Source: a virus
Direction: 5' to 3' (one strand)
Length of the DNA: 64,000 bases
IMG/VR virus record: IMGVR_UViG_3300042561_001059
Span: 1 to 64,000 of that record
Below, in pieces: positions 7,111 through 42,771 of the stretch. The translations under genes were made by a program, and so were the position numbers. The notes below the pieces were generated by a model. It was not told where the DNA came from. It saw only the letters and a program-made list of their open reading frames with translations, and made no database searches. The stretch's first letter is position 1. Every line of letters begins with the position of its first letter.

Positions 7111-7329
7111 ATGGACGCAGGTGTGCGCCAAAAACGTGTAGAAGCACTAGAGCTTATTAAAAATAAAGCTCTTGGTATGGCAAAAGAAGGCCGTGATTCG
7201 TTAGAAGTGCGTGATTTTGTATCTAATGCTAAGAAAGAATTGGCTTATGAGCTTCCAGATGAGGAAGCTTTTGGTAAAGCAGTAAAAGCAACAATGGCTT
7301 ATAAGCGTAAAAAAGAACGCCAAAGCTAA
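7111..7329 (+). CDS. hypothetical small protein, 72 aa
   Basis: This is a short, charged, helical protein (MDAGVRQKRVEALELIKNKA) ending in a basic tail. It is divergent from the late operon at 4903-7008 with about 100 nt between the starts, and it is followed at once by a strong terminator, so it forms a single-gene transcription unit. A small helical protein on the boundary of the early and late arms could be a regulator, but no DNA-binding motif is clear. Confidence 0.7.
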   Translation: MDAGVRQKRVEALELIKNKALGMAKEGRDSLEVRDFVSNAKKELAYELPDEEAFGKAVKATMAYKRKKERQS

Positions 7330-7340
7330 ATAAACAAATA

Positions 7341-7375
7341 AAAATGTCGCCGGGAAACAAAAGCCCGGCATTTTT
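7341..7375 (+). terminator. Rho-independent terminator
   Basis: A perfect 6-bp GC stem (GCCGGG at 7349-7354 with CCCGGC at 7364-7369) has a 9-nt loop and is followed by five T residues. The flanking AAAATG and CATTTTT can extend the stem, so it may also act from the minus strand. It closes the single-gene unit at 7111-7329. Confidence 0.85.
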
Positions 7376-7795
7376 GTGTAAATATTTGGACTAACCGGTA
7401 GTTTTGAGTACTATTTAGGATTTTTTATATTTTTTAAAATGTGTTTTTTGTTGTGCGCTTAAAGCGCCAACTTTTATACCCATATGGGTTGATAGTTATC
7501 TGACTCTTCTCCAACCACCAAACTGTAGTGGATTATGGGAAGAAAAAAAAAGGATACCGGTAACGATTCATAAGTATTTTTTATATAGCGAATGAAGCGT
7601 AGGCGGTCGTCCCAACCACTTTTATACAACCCTATGATAAACCTGTGGTAAACTCACCTGTTTTTGACCTAATTCGCTCTACCTGGCGCTGTCTAAATCG
7701 CTGAAAAGACTGTCGTGCCAAGGGATCTCGAGGATTGGTGGTTGCGAAAGGAGGAATGAATGAAGTGAATTCATTATTTATCTTTCGAATTCGTC
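7376..7795 (+). other. non-coding control region between late and early arms
   Basis: About 420 nt carry no convincing gene. The stretch contains a possible sigma-70 promoter with two palindromes (7451-7489) and A/T-rich tracts near 7536-7585. It also holds an unusually strong ribosome-binding sequence (AAAGGAGG, 7747-7754) that faces only a 27-codon reading frame starting at 7756 and overlapping the next gene. It lies where rightward early transcription would begin. I could not identify iterons or another origin signature. Confidence 0.5.
7451..7489 (+). promoter_or_regulatory. putative promoter with two operator-like palindromes
   Basis: TTGTGC (7451-7456) and TTATAC (7474-7479) are separated by 17 nt, a plausible sigma-70 promoter. 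A perfect 13-nt palindrome (GCGCTTAAAGCGC, 7455-7467) sits in the spacer. A perfect 12-nt palindrome (ACCCATATGGGT, 7478-7489) overlaps the -10 end. Palindromes in these two positions are typical of repressor sites; which protein binds is unknown. Confidence 0.4.
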
Positions 7796-7978
7796 ATGAT
7801 TTACACTGTTCAAATCAAACGGAATCCATTCGAACCTAACGTTGATTATACCTTTGCTGATACATATCTGCAAGGGTGTGAACGTCAGTTCGATACCAAA
7901 GAGCAAGCTGTTTCTTACCTCAATACATTTGAGGATTGGGAACAGGATTTGCTCTGTATTGATTCGTTTCCTTTCTGA
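7796..7978 (+). CDS. hypothetical early protein, 60 aa
   Basis: This small acidic protein begins MIYTVQIKRNPFEPNVDYTF and has a likely beta start followed by one helix. It is the first gene of the rightward early region. Its stop codon TGA lies inside the base-paired leader that precedes the next gene. No family was recognised. Confidence 0.65.
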   Translation: MIYTVQIKRNPFEPNVDYTFADTYLQGCERQFDTKEQAVSYLNTFEDWEQDLLCIDSFPF

Positions 7979-8041
7979 GTACCAGGCGTGACGCCGGGGG
8001 ATCAAATCCCCCACTCAGACTTACCACCCGCTAAGGGTGGT
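7975..8041 (+). promoter_or_regulatory. structured intergenic RNA, three-way junction plus hairpin
   Basis: CTGAGT (7975-7980) pairs with ACTCAG (8013-8018). This encloses a small GGCG/CGCC hairpin and a GGGGG/CCCCC hairpin. Immediately downstream is a perfect 7-bp hairpin, ACCACCC (8023-8029) with GGGTGGT (8035-8041). There is no T-run, so simple termination is unlikely. It ends 16 nt before the start at 8058 and parallels the paired-hairpin leaders at 8301, 8626 and 9125. Confidence 0.6.
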
Positions 8042-8057
8042 CTACTTAATACAACTC

Positions 8058-8288
8058 ATGATGATCTACCAGCCCACAGTTGATTCCCTTGACCGTGTCG
8101 TATGGCATGGTGGTGAATCAACGCAACTTCACTATGAGAAACTATCTCATGGCAAGTGGCTTGAACGCGATGTTCAAACTCTTGGCTCTGGTCTACCCAG
8201 GGGCATGAGTGAAATGCAGGCTGAGATGGTTGAGTACTATCAACTCTCTCAACTGCTTGAACAAGAACGTACCAAGCAACTTATGTGA
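8058..8288 (+). CDS. hypothetical early protein, 76 aa
   Basis: I start it at the first of two adjacent ATG codons (8058), because the upstream in-frame GTG at 8037 lies inside the hairpin leader. The protein is acidic and ends in a Glu/Gln-rich helix (MVEYYQLSQLLEQERTKQ). No motif identifies a function. Confidence 0.65.
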   Translation: MMIYQPTVDSLDRVVWHGGESTQLHYEKLSHGKWLERDVQTLGSGLPRGMSEMQAEMVEYYQLSQLLEQERTKQLM

Positions 8289-8300
8289 TGCTTGCATATT

Positions 8301-8343
8301 CCCATCTGTAACAAGATGGGTTTCTGCAGACTTCACATCTGCA
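8301..8343 (+). promoter_or_regulatory. class B leader, copy 1 (paired hairpins)
   Basis: Hairpin 1 is CCCATCT (8301-8307) with AGATGGG (8314-8320). The spacer TTTC follows, then hairpin 2, TGCAGA (8325-8330) with TCTGCA (8338-8343). Copies at 8626 and 9125 keep the layout and the TTTCTGCAG spacer but change the stem bases in a compensating way. It precedes the gene at 8372. Confidence 0.65.
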
Positions 8344-8371
8344 CTCAATTCAACTCAACCCACCTAGGACT

Positions 8372-8614
8372 ATGTCTCCTGCAAGTGTTGAACGTTTACT
8401 GATCCAAGATGCCCGGCTTCTCGCTCGTCGAGATGCACCTGTCATTGATCAAGAGATTGAAAGTGCAAGGCAACGAGCACTTGAGGTCTTTTACCAATGG
8501 CAAGACGGGATGGTTCAGTTCCAAGATCTGGTTCCATTCGTTGTTGTTCTTGAGAAGAAAGTCGATCTTAATCGAGCTCTTCTCAAGTGGGAACAAGAAC
8601 ATCTCGTAGATTAA
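8372..8614 (+). CDS. hypothetical early protein, 80 aa
   Basis: A helical, charged protein begins MSPASVERLLIQDARLLARRD, with repeated Leu spacing that could form a coiled coil. It is flanked on both sides by class B hairpin leaders. Competing reading frames over the same stretch (8396-8641 minus, 8409-8609 plus) lack equivalent signals. Function unknown. Confidence 0.6.
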   Translation: MSPASVERLLIQDARLLARRDAPVIDQEIESARQRALEVFYQWQDGMVQFQDLVPFVVVLEKKVDLNRALLKWEQEHLVD

Positions 8615-8625
8615 TTTCTGCATAT

Positions 8626-8677
8626 AACCCTTCTCATCCATTGGGTGAGTGGGTTTTCTGCAGGATTTAACTCCTGC
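8626..8677 (+). promoter_or_regulatory. class B leader, copy 2 (paired hairpins)
   Basis: Hairpin 1 is AACCC (8626-8630) with GGGTT (8651-8655), extended by CTCA (8633-8636) with TGAG (8646-8649). Hairpin 2 is GCAGGA (8660-8665) with TCCTGC (8672-8677). Stem 1 differs completely from copies 1 and 3 yet still pairs. The gene at 8707 follows 29 nt later. Confidence 0.65.
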
Positions 8678-8706
8678 TTGTCTACTAACTCAATTCAATT
8701 CAACCC

Positions 8707-9108
8707 ATGGCTTACGCTGATCTGCAATCAACAACTCTTGTTGGTCGCATTGCTGATCTCACTGTTATTACTACAGAAGATGAACGCAACTGCCTGGTCG
8801 TTACTATGTATCACCGCATCTCTCAAGATGCTACGGTCACTGTCAAGTTCTTGAATAGCAATGGCTTGCTCACTGCGTACACCAATGACAATCTCGTCGT
8901 TGGTCAAGAGTTGACAGTCTCAGGAAAGATCCAGGCTATTCGTTGCTTCTATATGAAAGATGAAGAGTTGACTCCTCTCAAGCAACCTGAGTTCCAAATG
9001 AAAGTCACTGACTACGCATTTGGTTCCAAGCCCCAACCCAAGGTTGAGGGAAAGGTTGCTGCTAAGAAGGGAAAGGTACAGCCAACGCTGGAACCTGTTG
9101 AACTCTGA
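8707..9108 (+). CDS. probable OB-fold (SSB-like) protein, 133 aa
   Basis: Residues 1-110 alternate short hydrophobic strands in the order expected for an OB fold: LVGRIADLTVITT, NCLVVTMYHR, ATVTVKFLN, a G-x-E-L-TVSGKI strand, and FQMKVTDYAF. The C-terminal 25 residues are Lys/Pro-rich. This resembles short phage single-stranded nucleic-acid-binding proteins and the strand pattern of the larger SSB at 20973. It lacks the acidic SSB tail. It could instead bind RNA, which would matter given the structured leaders around it. Confidence 0.6.
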   Translation: MAYADLQSTTLVGRIADLTVITTEDERNCLVVTMYHRISQDATVTVKFLNSNGLLTAYTNDNLVVGQELTVSGKIQAIRCFYMKDEELTPLKQPEFQMKVTDYAFGSKPQPKVEGKVAAKKGKVQPTLEPVEL

Positions 9109-9124
9109 TTAATTTCTGCACATT

Positions 9125-9168
9125 CCCATCTAGAAATAGATGGGTTTCTGCAGGACTTAATATCCTGC
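9125..9168 (+). promoter_or_regulatory. class B leader, copy 3 (paired hairpins)
   Basis: Hairpin 1 is CCCATCTA (9125-9132) with TAGATGGG (9137-9144) closed by a GAAA tetraloop. The spacer TTTCT follows, then hairpin 2, GCAGGA (9150-9155) with TCCTGC (9163-9168). It is the most stable of the three copies. The next start (9254) is 85 nt downstream, farther than in the other copies. Confidence 0.65.
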
Positions 9169-9253
9169 TCCCCTTCCACCTACCACCACTAGTACAAAGA
9201 TACTATTGGCCCATCAACCGTCAGGTTGATTCCCCATCCTTCGATCCATCATC

Positions 9254-9493
9254 ATGAAGCACATCATTAAGCTAAGTGATCGCAGCTTCCTGCACCTTGA
9301 TTCATACACTGAAAACATGGGTGAGAAGGCTGCGTCATTCGTTGGTAAAGCACTTGTCTTTATCACCGCCACAAGCATTGCTGCCATCACTACAGGCGCT
9401 ATGCTCGGTTACGACATCAGCACATTCAACTTCGATGGTAGCACCAAGCGAGTACCTATTCAGCACAGCTCTCAAGTGGAAACCAAACGGTGA
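9254..9493 (+). CDS. small single-pass membrane protein, 79 aa
   Basis: A hydrophobic segment at about residues 30-50 (GKALVFITATSIAAITTGAMLGY) follows a short charged N-terminus; the C-terminal 25 residues are polar. It could be an early inner-membrane protein of the superinfection-control kind, but nothing specific supports that. The start ATG at 9254 is well separated from the class B hairpins. Confidence 0.65.
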   Translation: MKHIIKLSDRSFLHLDSYTENMGEKAASFVGKALVFITATSIAAITTGAMLGYDISTFNFDGSTKRVPIQHSSQVETKR

Positions 9494-12844: not shown

Positions 12845-14584
12845 ATGCATTTTCATTTGCCTTCTAACTTGCAAACTGAGTTGATTGCGTATGACCCAGT
12901 CCTTAAGAAGCTGGCACGCAATACAAATCCAAAACCTAAAACCAAGAAATCAACTTATCCGCTTGGTAATCCCAAAGGATTAATTCCTGTTGATGTAGTG
13001 CGTGAGTCTATGCTTGACGACGCTATTAAAAACATTAACTCTTGTCCTGCATCTGATCGACATCAGAAGTTTACTCGTATTGTAAATGGTGAAGTAATTG
13101 TTACTGCCATCCTTTATCACTACGAGCAATGTTGGTATGCAGCATGGCTACCACCCAAAGAGAAAGAGGATAAGTATGTGTATGGCTATGCCTTTGCATT
13201 CAAAGATACAAAAGCTGCTCACGATATTGTTCCTAAAGTAATTATTAATTCAATTGATTCTTATCAACAAATAATCACTGGTCGCTCTTTGATGTACCAG
13301 CATCAAGAGGTTGTGACAATAGAATCAATCCGTAATGGACAGACGAATCGCAATTGGAATATCCCAAGTGCTGCTGCTTATTACAAAAAGAGTAAAGAGC
13401 TCTATCAAATTATTAAAGCATTTGAATCCCAATTGATAACTACAATTCCTGTATGGAAAGATTCACCTAATATCTTTGATCGTATTGCAAATAAAACTAA
13501 TCTTGCTTCTATTGTTTTCCAAGGATCATTAGAAATTAGTGATGAATATTGGCTTCAGTATGGAGACAAATCAAAATGGAAGGCTTCATATGAAAACCTA
13601 TTTGGTTTGATTACTTACCATGCACACACTAGTTGTTATGCCGGTGATGAATATAAAGCATACAATAAAATACTTCACATTATTTCTAAGCCATTCTTTA
13701 AGAAATGGATTCAAGCAAAATGTGATGAAGTTAATGCAATGCACCTTGATGAAACAAATGAATACCGTAGTTATATCAATAGACCATGGAAAATTATGAA
13801 AAAACTTTTAGCACGTATCTATGCTATTCATAAGATTTGGCCTGATTGCCCTATTGATTATTATCAAAATCATATTGAACAATTGATTAGTATTGACTTT
13901 ACCCGTCAATCGCCAACCACTGCGGTATCTGATTGGCTTGGTAAGCACATGCCTGTTGCATCGTTCTTCCAGATTATTACTAAACAATATGAGAAGGAAC
14001 GCCATGATGCTCAGACAAAAAACATGCAACGTTATTTCTTTGATGAACATCTTGGGCTTAGTGTTTACAGATTCTATGAATGGGCAGATACTATCTCAAT
14101 GCTTTGTCGTATTCTTGAAAGAGAAGAACACAAAGATTTTGCTCCGCCAAAGCGGTGGCGCATTGAAGAGTTTCATGACTATGTCCAGGCAGAAGCATGG
14201 AAGATTAGAAATCCAAACCATGCCTTACCTCAAGACTTGTTTCCAATACCTGTCAAAATTGAATTGGGTTCCAGTAATTGGTCTTTCTTTCAACCAATTG
14301 ATACCCATCAACTTGGCGAATGGGGACAAGCGGTTCGTAACTGTGTAGGTAACGCTGCCCATTACGCAGAAGGTGTGCGTAAAAAACAACACTTTATTGT
14401 GTTGTGTTTGATTGACAGCAAACCAAACTTCACAGTTCAACTCGAAGTCAGTAACGGTTTGATGTCCGTCAAACAAATCGTTGGGCTATCAAATACCAAG
14501 CTTACGCCGGAACAACAAGAGCTGTACACCACAGCATTTGGCATGGCTTTGCAAGCTCGTGAATCTGAGCTAGTATCTGCTTAG
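12845..14584 (+). CDS. PcfJ-domain protein, 579 aa
   Basis: The C-terminal 100 residues carry the PcfJ-type signature: a conserved RNCVGNAAHYAEGV block, a hydrophobic strand (HFIVLCLIDSKPNFTVQLEV), and KQIVGLSNTKLTPEQQ. In PcfJ proteins (mostly plasmid and phage encoded, activity unknown) this is the conserved core. The first 450 residues are helical and Trp-rich with no recognised domain. It is the largest gene of this part of the early region and has its own class A pseudoknot leader. A hairpin follows the stop. Confidence 0.75.
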   Translation: MHFHLPSNLQTELIAYDPVLKKLARNTNPKPKTKKSTYPLGNPKGLIPVDVVRESMLDDAIKNINSCPASDRHQKFTRIVNGEVIVTAILYHYEQCWYAAWLPPKEKEDKYVYGYAFAFKDTKAAHDIVPKVIINSIDSYQQIITGRSLMYQHQEVVTIESIRNGQTNRNWNIPSAAAYYKKSKELYQIIKAFESQLITTIPVWKDSPNIFDRIANKTNLASIVFQGSLEISDEYWLQYGDKSKWKASYENLFGLITYHAHTSCYAGDEYKAYNKILHIISKPFFKKWIQAKCDEVNAMHLDETNEYRSYINRPWKIMKKLLARIYAIHKIWPDCPIDYYQNHIEQLISIDFTRQSPTTAVSDWLGKHMPVASFFQIITKQYEKERHDAQTKNMQRYFFDEHLGLSVYRFYEWADTISMLCRILEREEHKDFAPPKRWRIEEFHDYVQAEAWKIRNPNHALPQDLFPIPVKIELGSSNWSFFQPIDTHQLGEWGQAVRNCVGNAAHYAEGVRKKQHFIVLCLIDSKPNFTVQLEVSNGLMSVKQIVGLSNTKLTPEQQELYTTAFGMALQARESELVSA

Positions 14585-14635: not shown

Positions 14636-14854
14636 ATGACTAACTACACCGACGATCAACTCCTGGCCATGGCCATGGCAAACATTGGAGAATTCATTCA
14701 TGACAATTCACCTCATTATGTATTGATCGAAAAAGATCCACGTAATGAAGATGATTACGATAGTTGGACTTACGGTATGGAAGTCCTGCCTAGTGATCAC
14801 ACTTGGTATCACACATCAATTGATGTGAGTGTAAATCCAAGTGAGCCTGAGTAG
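14636..14854 (+). CDS. hypothetical early protein, 72 aa, acidic
   Basis: The product is acidic with an ordinary globular composition (MTNYTDDQLLAMAMANIGEF). Its last three codons and TAG stop lie inside the acceptor stem of the following tRNA gene, so processing of the tRNA would destroy the end of this mRNA. Confidence 0.65.
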   Translation: MTNYTDDQLLAMAMANIGEFIHDNSPHYVLIEKDPRNEDDYDSWTYGMEVLPSDHTWYHTSIDVSVNPSEPE

Positions 14855-14917
14855 CCCAGCGGAAGAGGCAAACGACTTAAAATCGTTCCAGCGTGGGTTC
14901 GAATCCCTCCTCAGGCA
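14845..14917 (+). tRNA. tRNA-Leu (anticodon UAA) with a short variable loop
   Basis: The acceptor stem is GCCTGAG (14845-14851) with CTCAGGC (14910-14916), discriminator A14917, and CCA is not encoded. The anticodon stem AACGA/TCGTT has the loop CTTAAAA with anticodon TAA at 14878-14880. The T arm GTGGG-TTCGAAT-CCCTC has one T-T mismatch and the D stem is three pairs. The variable loop is only 5 nt, whereas bacterial tRNA-Leu normally has a long variable arm. Isotype therefore rests on the anticodon alone. An HNH endonuclease gene follows directly. Confidence 0.85.
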
Positions 14918-41421: not shown

Positions 41422-42684
41422 ATGACTAAACCAAAGCTTTTGTGGATTGGCGATATTATCGCTCGCACCGGATTTGCTCGTGTAACAGAAAATGTTCTTG
41501 AGCGAATCAAAGAAGAATATGAAGTGGTTGTATTGGGATGTAACTGGCATGGTGACCCACATCCTCTTCAGAACACATACAAAATTTTTCCAGCTACCAA
41601 CAGGTTTCAGCAGGCTCCGTTTGGAGAGGACCGTATTCGTGAAGTAGTGGAGGGCGAAAAGCCTGACGTTATCTTTACGATTAATGACATCTGGATTGTT
41701 AATGAACAGTACCGACGTATCGAGGATCTGCATAAGGCTGGTCGGTTTAAGTTTGTTGGCTACTGCCCCATGGATTCGTATGGCTGGATTGGGGGCATCA
41801 GCGATACTGCTAATGAATGGGATGCGTTGATTTCCTATACGGAATTTGGTGCATACGAATTTATTAAGGGTGGTATTCGTAAGCCGATTACTGTTATCCC
41901 CCACGGGATTACTGATGGTCAGTTTTATCCCAAGGATAAAGCGCAATGCCGAAAGGAGTTGGGCCTGAAGGAAGAAGACTTTATTGTTTTCAACGGGAAT
42001 AGGAATCAGTTCAGGAAAAGGATTGATATCACTATTTCTGCGTTTGCTGAGTTTGCGAAGGAAAGGCCTAATGCAAAGTTGTATTTGCATATGGGTACCA
42101 AGGATCAGGGCTGGGATGTGATGCAGGTGTTCGGTAGGGAGATGGTTCGTAGGGGACTTGATCCCAACGGAAGGATCATCATGACCGCCCAGACGCCTAA
42201 CCCTCCTGCTGTCGAAGTTGAGCTGCTTAACACGATTTATAACGCGGTTGACGTTGGTGTCAATACGTGTAAAGGGGAAGGATGGGGGCTCGTCAATTTT
42301 GAGCACGCTGCCTGCAGGGTGGCTCAGGTGGTGCCAGACCATACGTCCTGTAAAGAGATCTTTGAGGGCTACGGGAAGCTGATTCGGTGCGACCACGTGG
42401 ATGTGGACGTGAACTTCGCCAGGGAGATGCCATGCCCCTCTGACGCCCACCTGGCCGAGATTCTGGCTGAGCTGTACGAAAGTCCCGAAGAGCTGCTTCA
42501 GACGGCTGAGAAGTGCTACCAGAGGGCTACGGACGTTGCCTTCCAGTGGGACACCGTTGCTGCCGAATTCCACAAGGTGTTTCAAGAGGTGCTTTCTGAT
42601 ACGTATGAACTAGAGCAGAAGGAAGTCTCACCTGTCGCAATTGAGAAGAAAAGTAAGAAGGGAAAAGGGAAGAAAACTGCTTAA
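41422..42684 (+). CDS. glycosyltransferase family 4-like protein, 420 aa
   Basis: Two Rossmann-like halves are visible. The N-terminal domain starts PKLLWIGDIIARTGFARVTE. The C-terminal donor domain has FIVFNGNRNQFRKRIDITI and the E-x7-E motif in CKGEGWGLVNFEHAACR (near residue 295). The last 30 residues are Lys-rich. TATAAT (41394-41399) lies 22 nt before the start. It probably transfers sugars from a nucleotide donor; the acceptor is unknown. Confidence 0.87.
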   Translation: MTKPKLLWIGDIIARTGFARVTENVLERIKEEYEVVVLGCNWHGDPHPLQNTYKIFPATNRFQQAPFGEDRIREVVEGEKPDVIFTINDIWIVNEQYRRIEDLHKAGRFKFVGYCPMDSYGWIGGISDTANEWDALISYTEFGAYEFIKGGIRKPITVIPHGITDGQFYPKDKAQCRKELGLKEEDFIVFNGNRNQFRKRIDITISAFAEFAKERPNAKLYLHMGTKDQGWDVMQVFGREMVRRGLDPNGRIIMTAQTPNPPAVEVELLNTIYNAVDVGVNTCKGEGWGLVNFEHAACRVAQVVPDHTSCKEIFEGYGKLIRCDHVDVDVNFAREMPCPSDAHLAEILAELYESPEELLQTAEKCYQRATDVAFQWDTVAAEFHKVFQEVLSDTYELEQKEVSPVAIEKKSKKGKGKKTA

Positions 42685-42712
42685 CCTTTTCTTAGCCAAA
42701 GTCCTACCACCC

Positions 42713-42771
42713 ATCCCCAAGACCAGGCCCATCACCAAAACGTAGTGGTGGCAATGGTTTTGGGGATTTTT
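42713..42771 (+). terminator. terminator with a long stem-loop
   Basis: ATCCCCAA (42713-42720) pairs with TTGGGGAT (42760-42767), followed by T residues. An internal CACC/GGTG helix (near 42733-42750) makes the loop itself structured. It ends the primase-SpeD-glycosyltransferase operon. Confidence 0.75.

Follow-up and report, generated by a model that had tools for sequence, protein, structure and literature searches.

The window analyzed here, 64,000 nucleotides (nt) in length, comprises positions 1 to 64,000 of the 83.5-kb virus record IMGVR_UViG_3300042561_001059 (IMG/VR) and is, judged by nucleotide similarity, a relative of cyanobacterial phage S-EIV1 (Synechococcus phage, KJ410740), the sole phage record to match window positions 7.0 to 14.0 kb (71.6% identity, 37% query coverage). 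Past a gap of about 450 nt, small plus-strand genes occupy the region, and the junctions between them hold the elements considered here: a three-way junction at 7975 and three copies of a three-arm element, in the order A-H1-A'-A'', at 8285–8344, 8611–8679 and 9109–9170. H1 is a hairpin exchanged between copies; arm A' has two possible partners, A, in which case H1 is enclosed, and A'', which gives hairpin 2 (H2), but never pairs with both; and P0 denotes the triplet at the outer end of A. Up- and downstream genes were assigned by open reading frame (ORF) length, not annotation. The features are, in order:

7796–7978 (+), ORF of 60 amino acids (aa) upstream of the 7975 element; no family, top Pfam match under the cut-off
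7975–8018 (+), three-way junction, class II; base helix P1 CTGAGT 7975–7980/ACTCAG 8013–8018
8023–8041 (+), P4 hairpin ACCACCC/GGGTGGT, after the three-way junction and before the start codon
8061–8288 (+), ORF of 75 aa lying 3' of the 7975 element and 5' of copy 1; no family, homologs found
8286–8296 (+), copy 1 P0 and arm A; TGA stop 8286–8288 of ORF 8061–8288, then TGCTTGCA
8301–8320 (+), copy 1 H1, CCCATCT/AGATGGG; same module also in relatives L010 and L013
8325–8335 (+), copy 1 arm A', TGCAGAC with TCA; partner A/P0 or A''
8338–8342 (+), copy 1 arm A'', TCTGC
8372–8614 (+), ORF of 80 aa, flanked by copies 1 and 2; conserved in S-EIV1, no family
8612–8622 (+), copy 2 P0 and arm A; TAA stop 8612–8614 of ORF 8372–8614, then TTTCTGCA
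8626–8655 (+), copy 2 H1, AACCC/GGGTT plus inner stem
8659–8669 (+), copy 2 arm A', TGCAGGA with TTA
8672–8677 (+), copy 2 arm A'', TCCTGC
8707–9108 (+), ORF of 133 aa between copies 2 and 3; OB fold like that of single-stranded DNA-binding proteins (SSB-like) by model
9110–9120 (+), copy 3 P0 and arm A; TAA 9110–9112, then TTTCTGCA
9125–9144 (+), copy 3 H1, CCCATCTA/TAGATGGG
9149–9159 (+), copy 3 arm A', TGCAGGA with TTA
9163–9168 (+), copy 3 arm A'', TCCTGC
9254–9493 (+), ORF of 79 aa 3' of copy 3; in its blastp cluster, 28 members lie after a three-arm element

A preliminary description of this DNA had reported paired hairpins, the first with exchanged stems, at 8301, 8626 and 9125. That layout is present with the stems then given, and hairpins 1 and 2 taken alone fold better than dinucleotide shuffles (z about −4.6 to −5.0, with 0 of 200 shuffles as good at each of the three sites). 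Both hairpins therefore stand, but the two-hairpin anatomy had omitted arm A (8289–8296, 8615–8622 and 9113–9120), upstream of hairpin 1, and a second fold, A:A', which excludes hairpin 2. When flanks are included copies 2 and 3 refold, TAATTTCTGCA 5' of hairpin 1 capturing the 5' strand of hairpin 2, which leads to the division into three arms A, A' and A''. In copy 1 the stop TGA pairs with TCA 8333–8335 and a single C-A mismatch lies inside A:A'; in copy 3 TAA 9110–9112 is not a stop codon, the stop of the gene being TGA 9106–9108. A covariance model built from relatives and two window copies returned three strong matches in the window (E 2e-15, 1.5e-13 and 4e-11, filters off), followed by three minus-strand mirror images of the same copies (16–21 bits vs. 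51–67); the fourth listed match mirrors copy 3, and the window genome has three three-arm copies.

Covariation Supports Two Exclusive Folds

Relatives were collected by a protein-guided scan (26 viral loci), a wider scan (58) and a DNA pattern (25 stretches), and L-numbers such as L003 label their viral loci. A hand-coded search, from which 8 chance matches were removed by eye, and covariance model R1, run on 62 chosen loci, yielded 147 copies, 123 of them distinct, with 3 minus-strand mirror matches dropped, and a later model search covered 66 loci; the viral contigs are partly near-duplicates, and counts refer to distinct sequences where so stated, not to independent lineages. The preliminary description would have been undone by loss of the hairpins in close relatives, and they are not lost: at least one three-arm match was found in 27/27 whole records searched, the strong matches of one record clustering together. 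Judged from these records, the elements cluster in one gene neighborhood of S-EIV1-like phages. S-EIV1 itself has a single three-arm copy, near positions 42,660–42,720 of its record, together with two three-way junctions, and its homologous junction has the same layout in different letters.

Across 28 aligned copies, 98.0% of the cells in A:A' plus H1 are paired, against 77.4% in shuffled alignments (0/500 as high) and 43–46% after a slide by one column, while H1 plus A':A'' reaches 98.8% against 73.2% (0/500), bearing out the earlier statement that the exchanged stem always pairs. H1 shows changes on both sides at 6/6 pairs tested. In 126 distinct rows, an alignment fitted to the model, A:A' plus H1 is paired in 96.7% of cells vs. 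76.0%, with 370 double-changed cells vs. 98.8. The 95% A:A' pairing in the 123-copy set is partly built in because R1, with which the set was collected, contains the A:A' and H1 pairs, and in the first hand-coded set A was picked by best pairing. When A is instead chosen blind to pairing, as the nearest TGC, 259/306 cells are paired against 222.6 expected (SD 4.7), and 0/5000 shuffles are as high.

The arms also change together. Fifteen A' types occur, and A' forms six base pairs with its own A in 107/123 copies, against 13.5% when A is set against the A' of other types; the corresponding figures for A'' are 102/123 and 8.6%. Even the CTGC core can be altered in all three arms, as in TTCTGT/ACAGGA/TCCTGT and GACTAC/GTAGTC/GGACTAC: the rare core CTGT/ACAG/CTGT is found in L111, L112, L116 and L119 and separately in L027 and L031, and CTAC/GTAG/CTAC in L115 and others. 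On a tree of the SSB-like protein (n = 47), A' of the upstream junction has undergone at least 10 changes, with A and A'' following, every row fitting both arms except L091, with one mismatch in A. RNAalifold, unprompted, returns the A:A' fold (state 1 below). Finally, G-U exceeds A-C in A:A' cells (94 vs. 14, and 44 vs. 10 in the pairing-blind set), which argues that the RNA of the coding strand is what is selected. Two mutually exclusive, conserved helices sharing one arm are one hallmark of a ribosome-dependent attenuator, and from the aligned sequences a two-state, stop-anchored RNA is well supported.

Stop-Codon Anchoring and a Proposed Mechanism

The terminal three A:A' pairs, beyond a 1×1 pyrimidine mismatch, are mostly TGA/TCA or TAA/TTA, two copies having TCA/TGA or GCA/TGA in that place. 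P0 is the stop of the longest upstream ORF in 74/123 copies, and that stop lies in P0 or 0–12 nt 5' of it in 110/123, which, as in attenuators, places an arm within reach of a ribosome in the upstream frame. The elements had been called leaders, and they do precede the next gene (the next ATG is 17–30 nt past A'' in 101/117 copies having an ORF of at least 45 codons); they are also tightly bound to the stop codon of the preceding one. CA-rich, G-poor stretches (ACTCAATTCAACTCAACCC) precede start codons at window positions 8343–8362 and 8688–8707 and in relatives; near-identical across junctions, they mostly have no evident Shine-Dalgarno sequence.

State 1 averages −27.9 kcal/mol (A'' masked) and state 2 −23.2 (A masked), a mean difference of 4.7, and state 1 is the lower in 101/102 copies; vacant RNA should therefore rest in state 1, and state 2 would need A to be held. 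The footprint of a terminating ribosome extends about 9–10 nt beyond the stop and would span A, not H1. On this basis we propose the following cycle. In state 1, A, at or just past the upstream stop, would pair with A' and enclose H1, and the last three base pairs, past the pyrimidine mismatch, would come from the stop codon or from a TRA triplet that replaces it, whereas in state 2 A' would be taken up with A'' in hairpin 2, so that H1 stands by itself and A is unpaired. During termination on the upstream gene, the ribosome may cover A, so that upstream translation would drive the RNA into state 2, and at a vacant stop the more stable state 1 would retake A' by branch migration; such gating of the fold is plausible. 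The output is the least certain part: the state might govern entry to the next gene, through insulation or through initiation on the unstructured CA-rich leader 17–30 nt past A'', and/or decide between cleavage and protection of the message at the junction.

Several observations weigh against this interpretation. The pairing-blind choice of A gives 84.6% pairing, or 91.3% (241/264) minus the 8 chance matches picked by eye. Swapping of cassettes between copies could transfer entire elements that are already self-consistent, and the 10 or more A' changes on the tree need not then be stepwise compensations; each cassette agrees with both folds. Seven of the 123 copies lack H2 by the criterion used, in 49/123 P0 does not coincide with the stop of the longest upstream ORF, and 13/123 do not have that stop within 12 nt 5'. 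Predicted start-codon accessibility is nearly equal in the two states (mean 0.645 vs. 0.672; up in 51/102 copies, down in 12/102), which speaks against simple start-site hiding, so that simple sequestration of the start site is not supported; neither fold is computed to terminate transcription or to hide the start. A passage of a review notes that structure right after a stop codon reduces coupling to the next gene (PMC12548453), so that, as far as that passage goes, insulation would fit better than activation.

Three-Way Junctions Share the Boundary Position

The preliminary description had treated the structure at 7975 as related to the paired hairpins. The two have position and stop-codon anchoring in common, but the 7975 structure belongs to a separate family, which we call class II, rather than being a variant of the same fold. 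Its P1 holds the TGA stop 7976–7978 of ORF 7796–7978; P2 (GGCG/CGCC, in the 7985–7995 region) has 3–4 bp, and P3 (7996–8012) carries the T-loop-like sequence ATCAAAT. The 7979–8050 structure scores z −3.9, with 1/200 dinucleotide shuffles as good. A structure search combined with the loop pattern T[CT]NA[AT] gave 41 distinct class II members including that of the window, in which 99.5% of cells are paired and 11 pairs have changed on both sides; the loop is ATCRAAT or GTCRAAC in 41/41, although T[CT]NA[AT] was itself required by the search. The class shares with tRNA a T-arm-like hairpin (loop AUCRAAU) abutting the 3' strand of the base helix, as acceptor and T-arm do; unlike tRNA it has no anticodon arm, a P2 of only 3–4 bp and a stop codon in its base helix, and it was neither called as a tRNA nor matched in Rfam. 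No second state was found for this class. A candidate pairing between the junction CAGT and the P4 loop ACTG, inspected by eye, showed no covariation and was discarded.

A sister family, class I (CTGATCCGTNNAAGCGGG-P3-GTGCAAAC-P3-CAG), occurs in at least 120 viral stretches, and an exact-pattern scan of bacterial and archaeal genomes found one contig only, its helices absent by eye. Sixty members are 99.2% paired; L125, one 57-nt copy and 3 copies near contig ends were dropped from the class I set. The set was gathered by a fixed sequence pattern, and the invariance of P2 and GTGCAAA therefore arises by selection. The best match in the window to R2, the class I model, is no better than E 2.2, which sets the 7975 structure outside class I. 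The stop of the longest upstream ORF falls inside the base helix in 99/131 class I and 31/41 class II elements. Among 136 class I matches, sorted by a crude regular expression, 54 (with the chance contig L125 counted in) precede a segment with crossing pairings GCC/GGC and AGCGG/CCGC, and most of the other 82 precede a simple P4 hairpin. The segment TTGCCCCCAGCGGAGATGGGCACCGCAC follows many class I junctions (L003 4236–4275, L023 6990–7030, L124 3080–3120 and others), is often succeeded by ACAGGAG and a start codon, and by eye its crossing pairings covary (GCC/GGC plus GCGG/CCGC, CTGG/CCAG or CAGG/CCTG); it may form a pseudoknot or represent another two-state element.

The three classes interchange before orthologous genes. 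Compared by blastp, the genes after 286/299 elements form 27 clusters of at least two, 15 of which follow elements of two or more classes: the cluster of ORF 8372 is preceded by 14 three-arm, 6 class I and 1 class II elements, and that of ORF 8061 by 11 class I, 3 class II and 2 three-arm elements. Such exchange counts against sensing of gene-specific ligands and favors a boundary function common to the classes, in which the 7975 junction may do the same kind of job with another fold. With about even confidence, and from sequence comparison, we suggest that these are cis-acting RNAs that lie between cistrons, are anchored on stop codons and can stand in for one another, and that the three-arm class is a switch with two states, governed by ribosome occupancy of the upstream stop.

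Alternative Explanations

Output by mRNA processing is the best-surviving rival and, as a full account, possible but rather unlikely. Each element would mark where the message is cut between cistrons; the upstream 3' end would be guarded by the stop-anchored fold and the downstream 5' end by hairpin 2 or P4, and RNase E would cut the single-stranded U-rich spacer of state 2 or RNase III the long state-1 hairpin. Classes swap at one junction as generic punctuation would, and 16/99 distinct H1 segments carry C(UUCG)G or C(UACG)G loops, which are typical of stable mRNA hairpins. The host group has the enzymes: RNase E, RNase III (often several), RNase J and RNase Z are listed for cyanobacteria in the part of the source consulted (PMC10989914). 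Yet a protective hairpin needs neither a stop codon inside it nor an alternative partner for A', and the U-rich spacer is not general: at least three T in the 4 nt before A' occur in 76/123 distinct copies, and one subtype has a C-rich spacer.

An autoregulatory operator, in which binding of the phage SSB-like protein to A, A'' or the CA-rich leader, in single-stranded form, would shift the fold, is improbable. The ORF at 8707–9108, between copies 2 and 3, is modeled by AlphaFold with a predicted local distance difference test (pLDDT) score of 77.6, its top Foldseek matches are SSBs (E 5e-4), and 41 distinct three-arm copies directly precede SSB-like genes, so that the adjacency expected of an operator exists. 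Other genes are preceded as well (28 of the 9254 family, 14 homologs of 8372), and no conserved single-stranded binding sequence was noticed outside the arms. T4 gp32 acts on its own mRNA, and like the T4 gene 32 operator the element is a structured RNA 5' of an SSB gene; it differs in preceding other genes too and in that no pseudoknot was found in the three-arm class.

Transcription termination or attenuation, with H1 and the U-rich spacer pausing or releasing polymerase and A:A' or A':A'' deciding the outcome, is very unlikely. The exclusive arms do look attenuator-like, and the earlier remark that poly-T is absent holds for hairpin 2 but not for hairpin 1 of copy 2, which precedes TTTTCT and is flagged by a simple terminator scan. 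The G+C-rich hairpin with U-tract that defines an intrinsic terminator is lacking at hairpin 2 and present at H1 in some copies only, the spacer is not T-rich in 47/123 copies, and the scan's 3 terminator-like sites are not above the 2.1 expected by chance, so that the earlier judgment that simple termination is unlikely agrees with these results. Equally remote is a DNA-level cruciform, recombination or homing site spreading between junctions without RNA function: H1 modules recur across several junctions and genomes and a GIY-YIG-like ORF lies within H1 of two relatives, but a cruciform is disfavored by the excess of G-U over A-C on the coding strand, strong matches lie on that strand from stop to start with only weak minus-strand mirrors, and three-arm covariation exceeds the homology that recombination needs.

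Relation to Known Systems

The elements fall in no known family and combine attenuator-like pairing logic with neither a terminator nor start-site hiding as computed. At the gathering threshold, Rfam 15 finds only the tRNA-Leu at 14845 in the window and, with a permissive cut-off, nothing up to E 5 in 7300–9300; in L003, L023, L094, L112 and L124 it finds one tRNA only, three matches in L124 3000–4600 being far below threshold. The trp-type transcription and erm-type translational attenuators are among the closest known systems. They too have exclusive helices with a common arm, one arm lying where a ribosome would cover it; the elements here differ in having no leader peptide, stalling codons or terminator, in showing no start-site hiding, in that the sensed ribosome would terminate on an ordinary upstream gene, and in their freely exchanged inner hairpin. 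Recurrent, stable intercistronic hairpins among small phage genes are familiar from T7 (RNase III sites) and T4 (C(UUCG)G hairpins) and resemble ours in those respects; we know of no stop-codon anchoring or three-arm alternative pairing in them. Attenuation, in the portion of the review cited above, involves the ribosome occluding pairing arms, and translational coupling via RNA unfolding is described there for phage f1 VII-IX and rpmI-rplT (PMC12548453). Upstream translation would likewise unfold an intercistronic structure here; by comparison with what that portion gives, the present structure begins at the stop codon itself and can adopt a second, defined fold, and in its two predicted states the start region is about as open in one as in the other.

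The elements are not described in the open-license papers searched, and their sequences point to an undescribed way to mark or control gene boundaries in phage messages. More tentatively, and with less than even confidence, S-EIV1-like cyanophages may use a general RNA punctuation in which unrelated stop-built folds interchange, termination sets message fold and fate up to the next start, and the three-arm class reads stop-codon occupancy. The folds so used would be those of the three-arm switch and of two families of three-way junctions, one of which has a T-arm like that of tRNA. If true, an RNA fold would depend on a ribosome at an ordinary gene's stop, be repeated along an operon and be swappable with other stop-anchored folds, a regulatory logic that we did not find described in the literature searched. 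It would give phages a compact, gene-by-gene setting of expression and might serve as a portable part, since nature swaps H1 freely as A, A' and A'' remain complementary. S-EIV1 is cultured and carries the elements, so direct testing is possible.

H1 Inserts and Neighboring Features

Long H1 stems often end in a perfect 16-nt palindrome, GATACGAATTCGTATC (8/99 distinct segments; L016, L017, L023, L112, L119 and L120). In L106 (4390–4740) and L109 (4400–4745) an insert of about 300 bp lies within H1 with both stem ends kept; its minus-strand ORF of 101–103 aa has a GIY-YIG match (E 5e-4, below the Pfam cut-off), and it is perhaps a small homing-type gene nested in the hairpin. A separate idea, that H1 is an insert between TTTCTGCA repeats produced by target-site duplication, was rejected because A covaries with A' past the shared TGC and because the flanks are not repeats in the C-rich subtype.

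PHROGs and Pfam searches of the neighboring ORFs gave nothing useful apart from a PcfJ-like ORF at 12845–14584, 3' of which lies a tRNA-Leu (TAA) gene at 14845–14917. Just past ORF 7111–7329, positions 7343–7380 hold a hairpin, GCCGGGAAACAAAAGCCCGGC, followed by ATTTTTGTG, which is likely a terminator; its S-EIV1 counterpart is similar (GGGGCCTAAAACCCCGGCTTTTTTGG).

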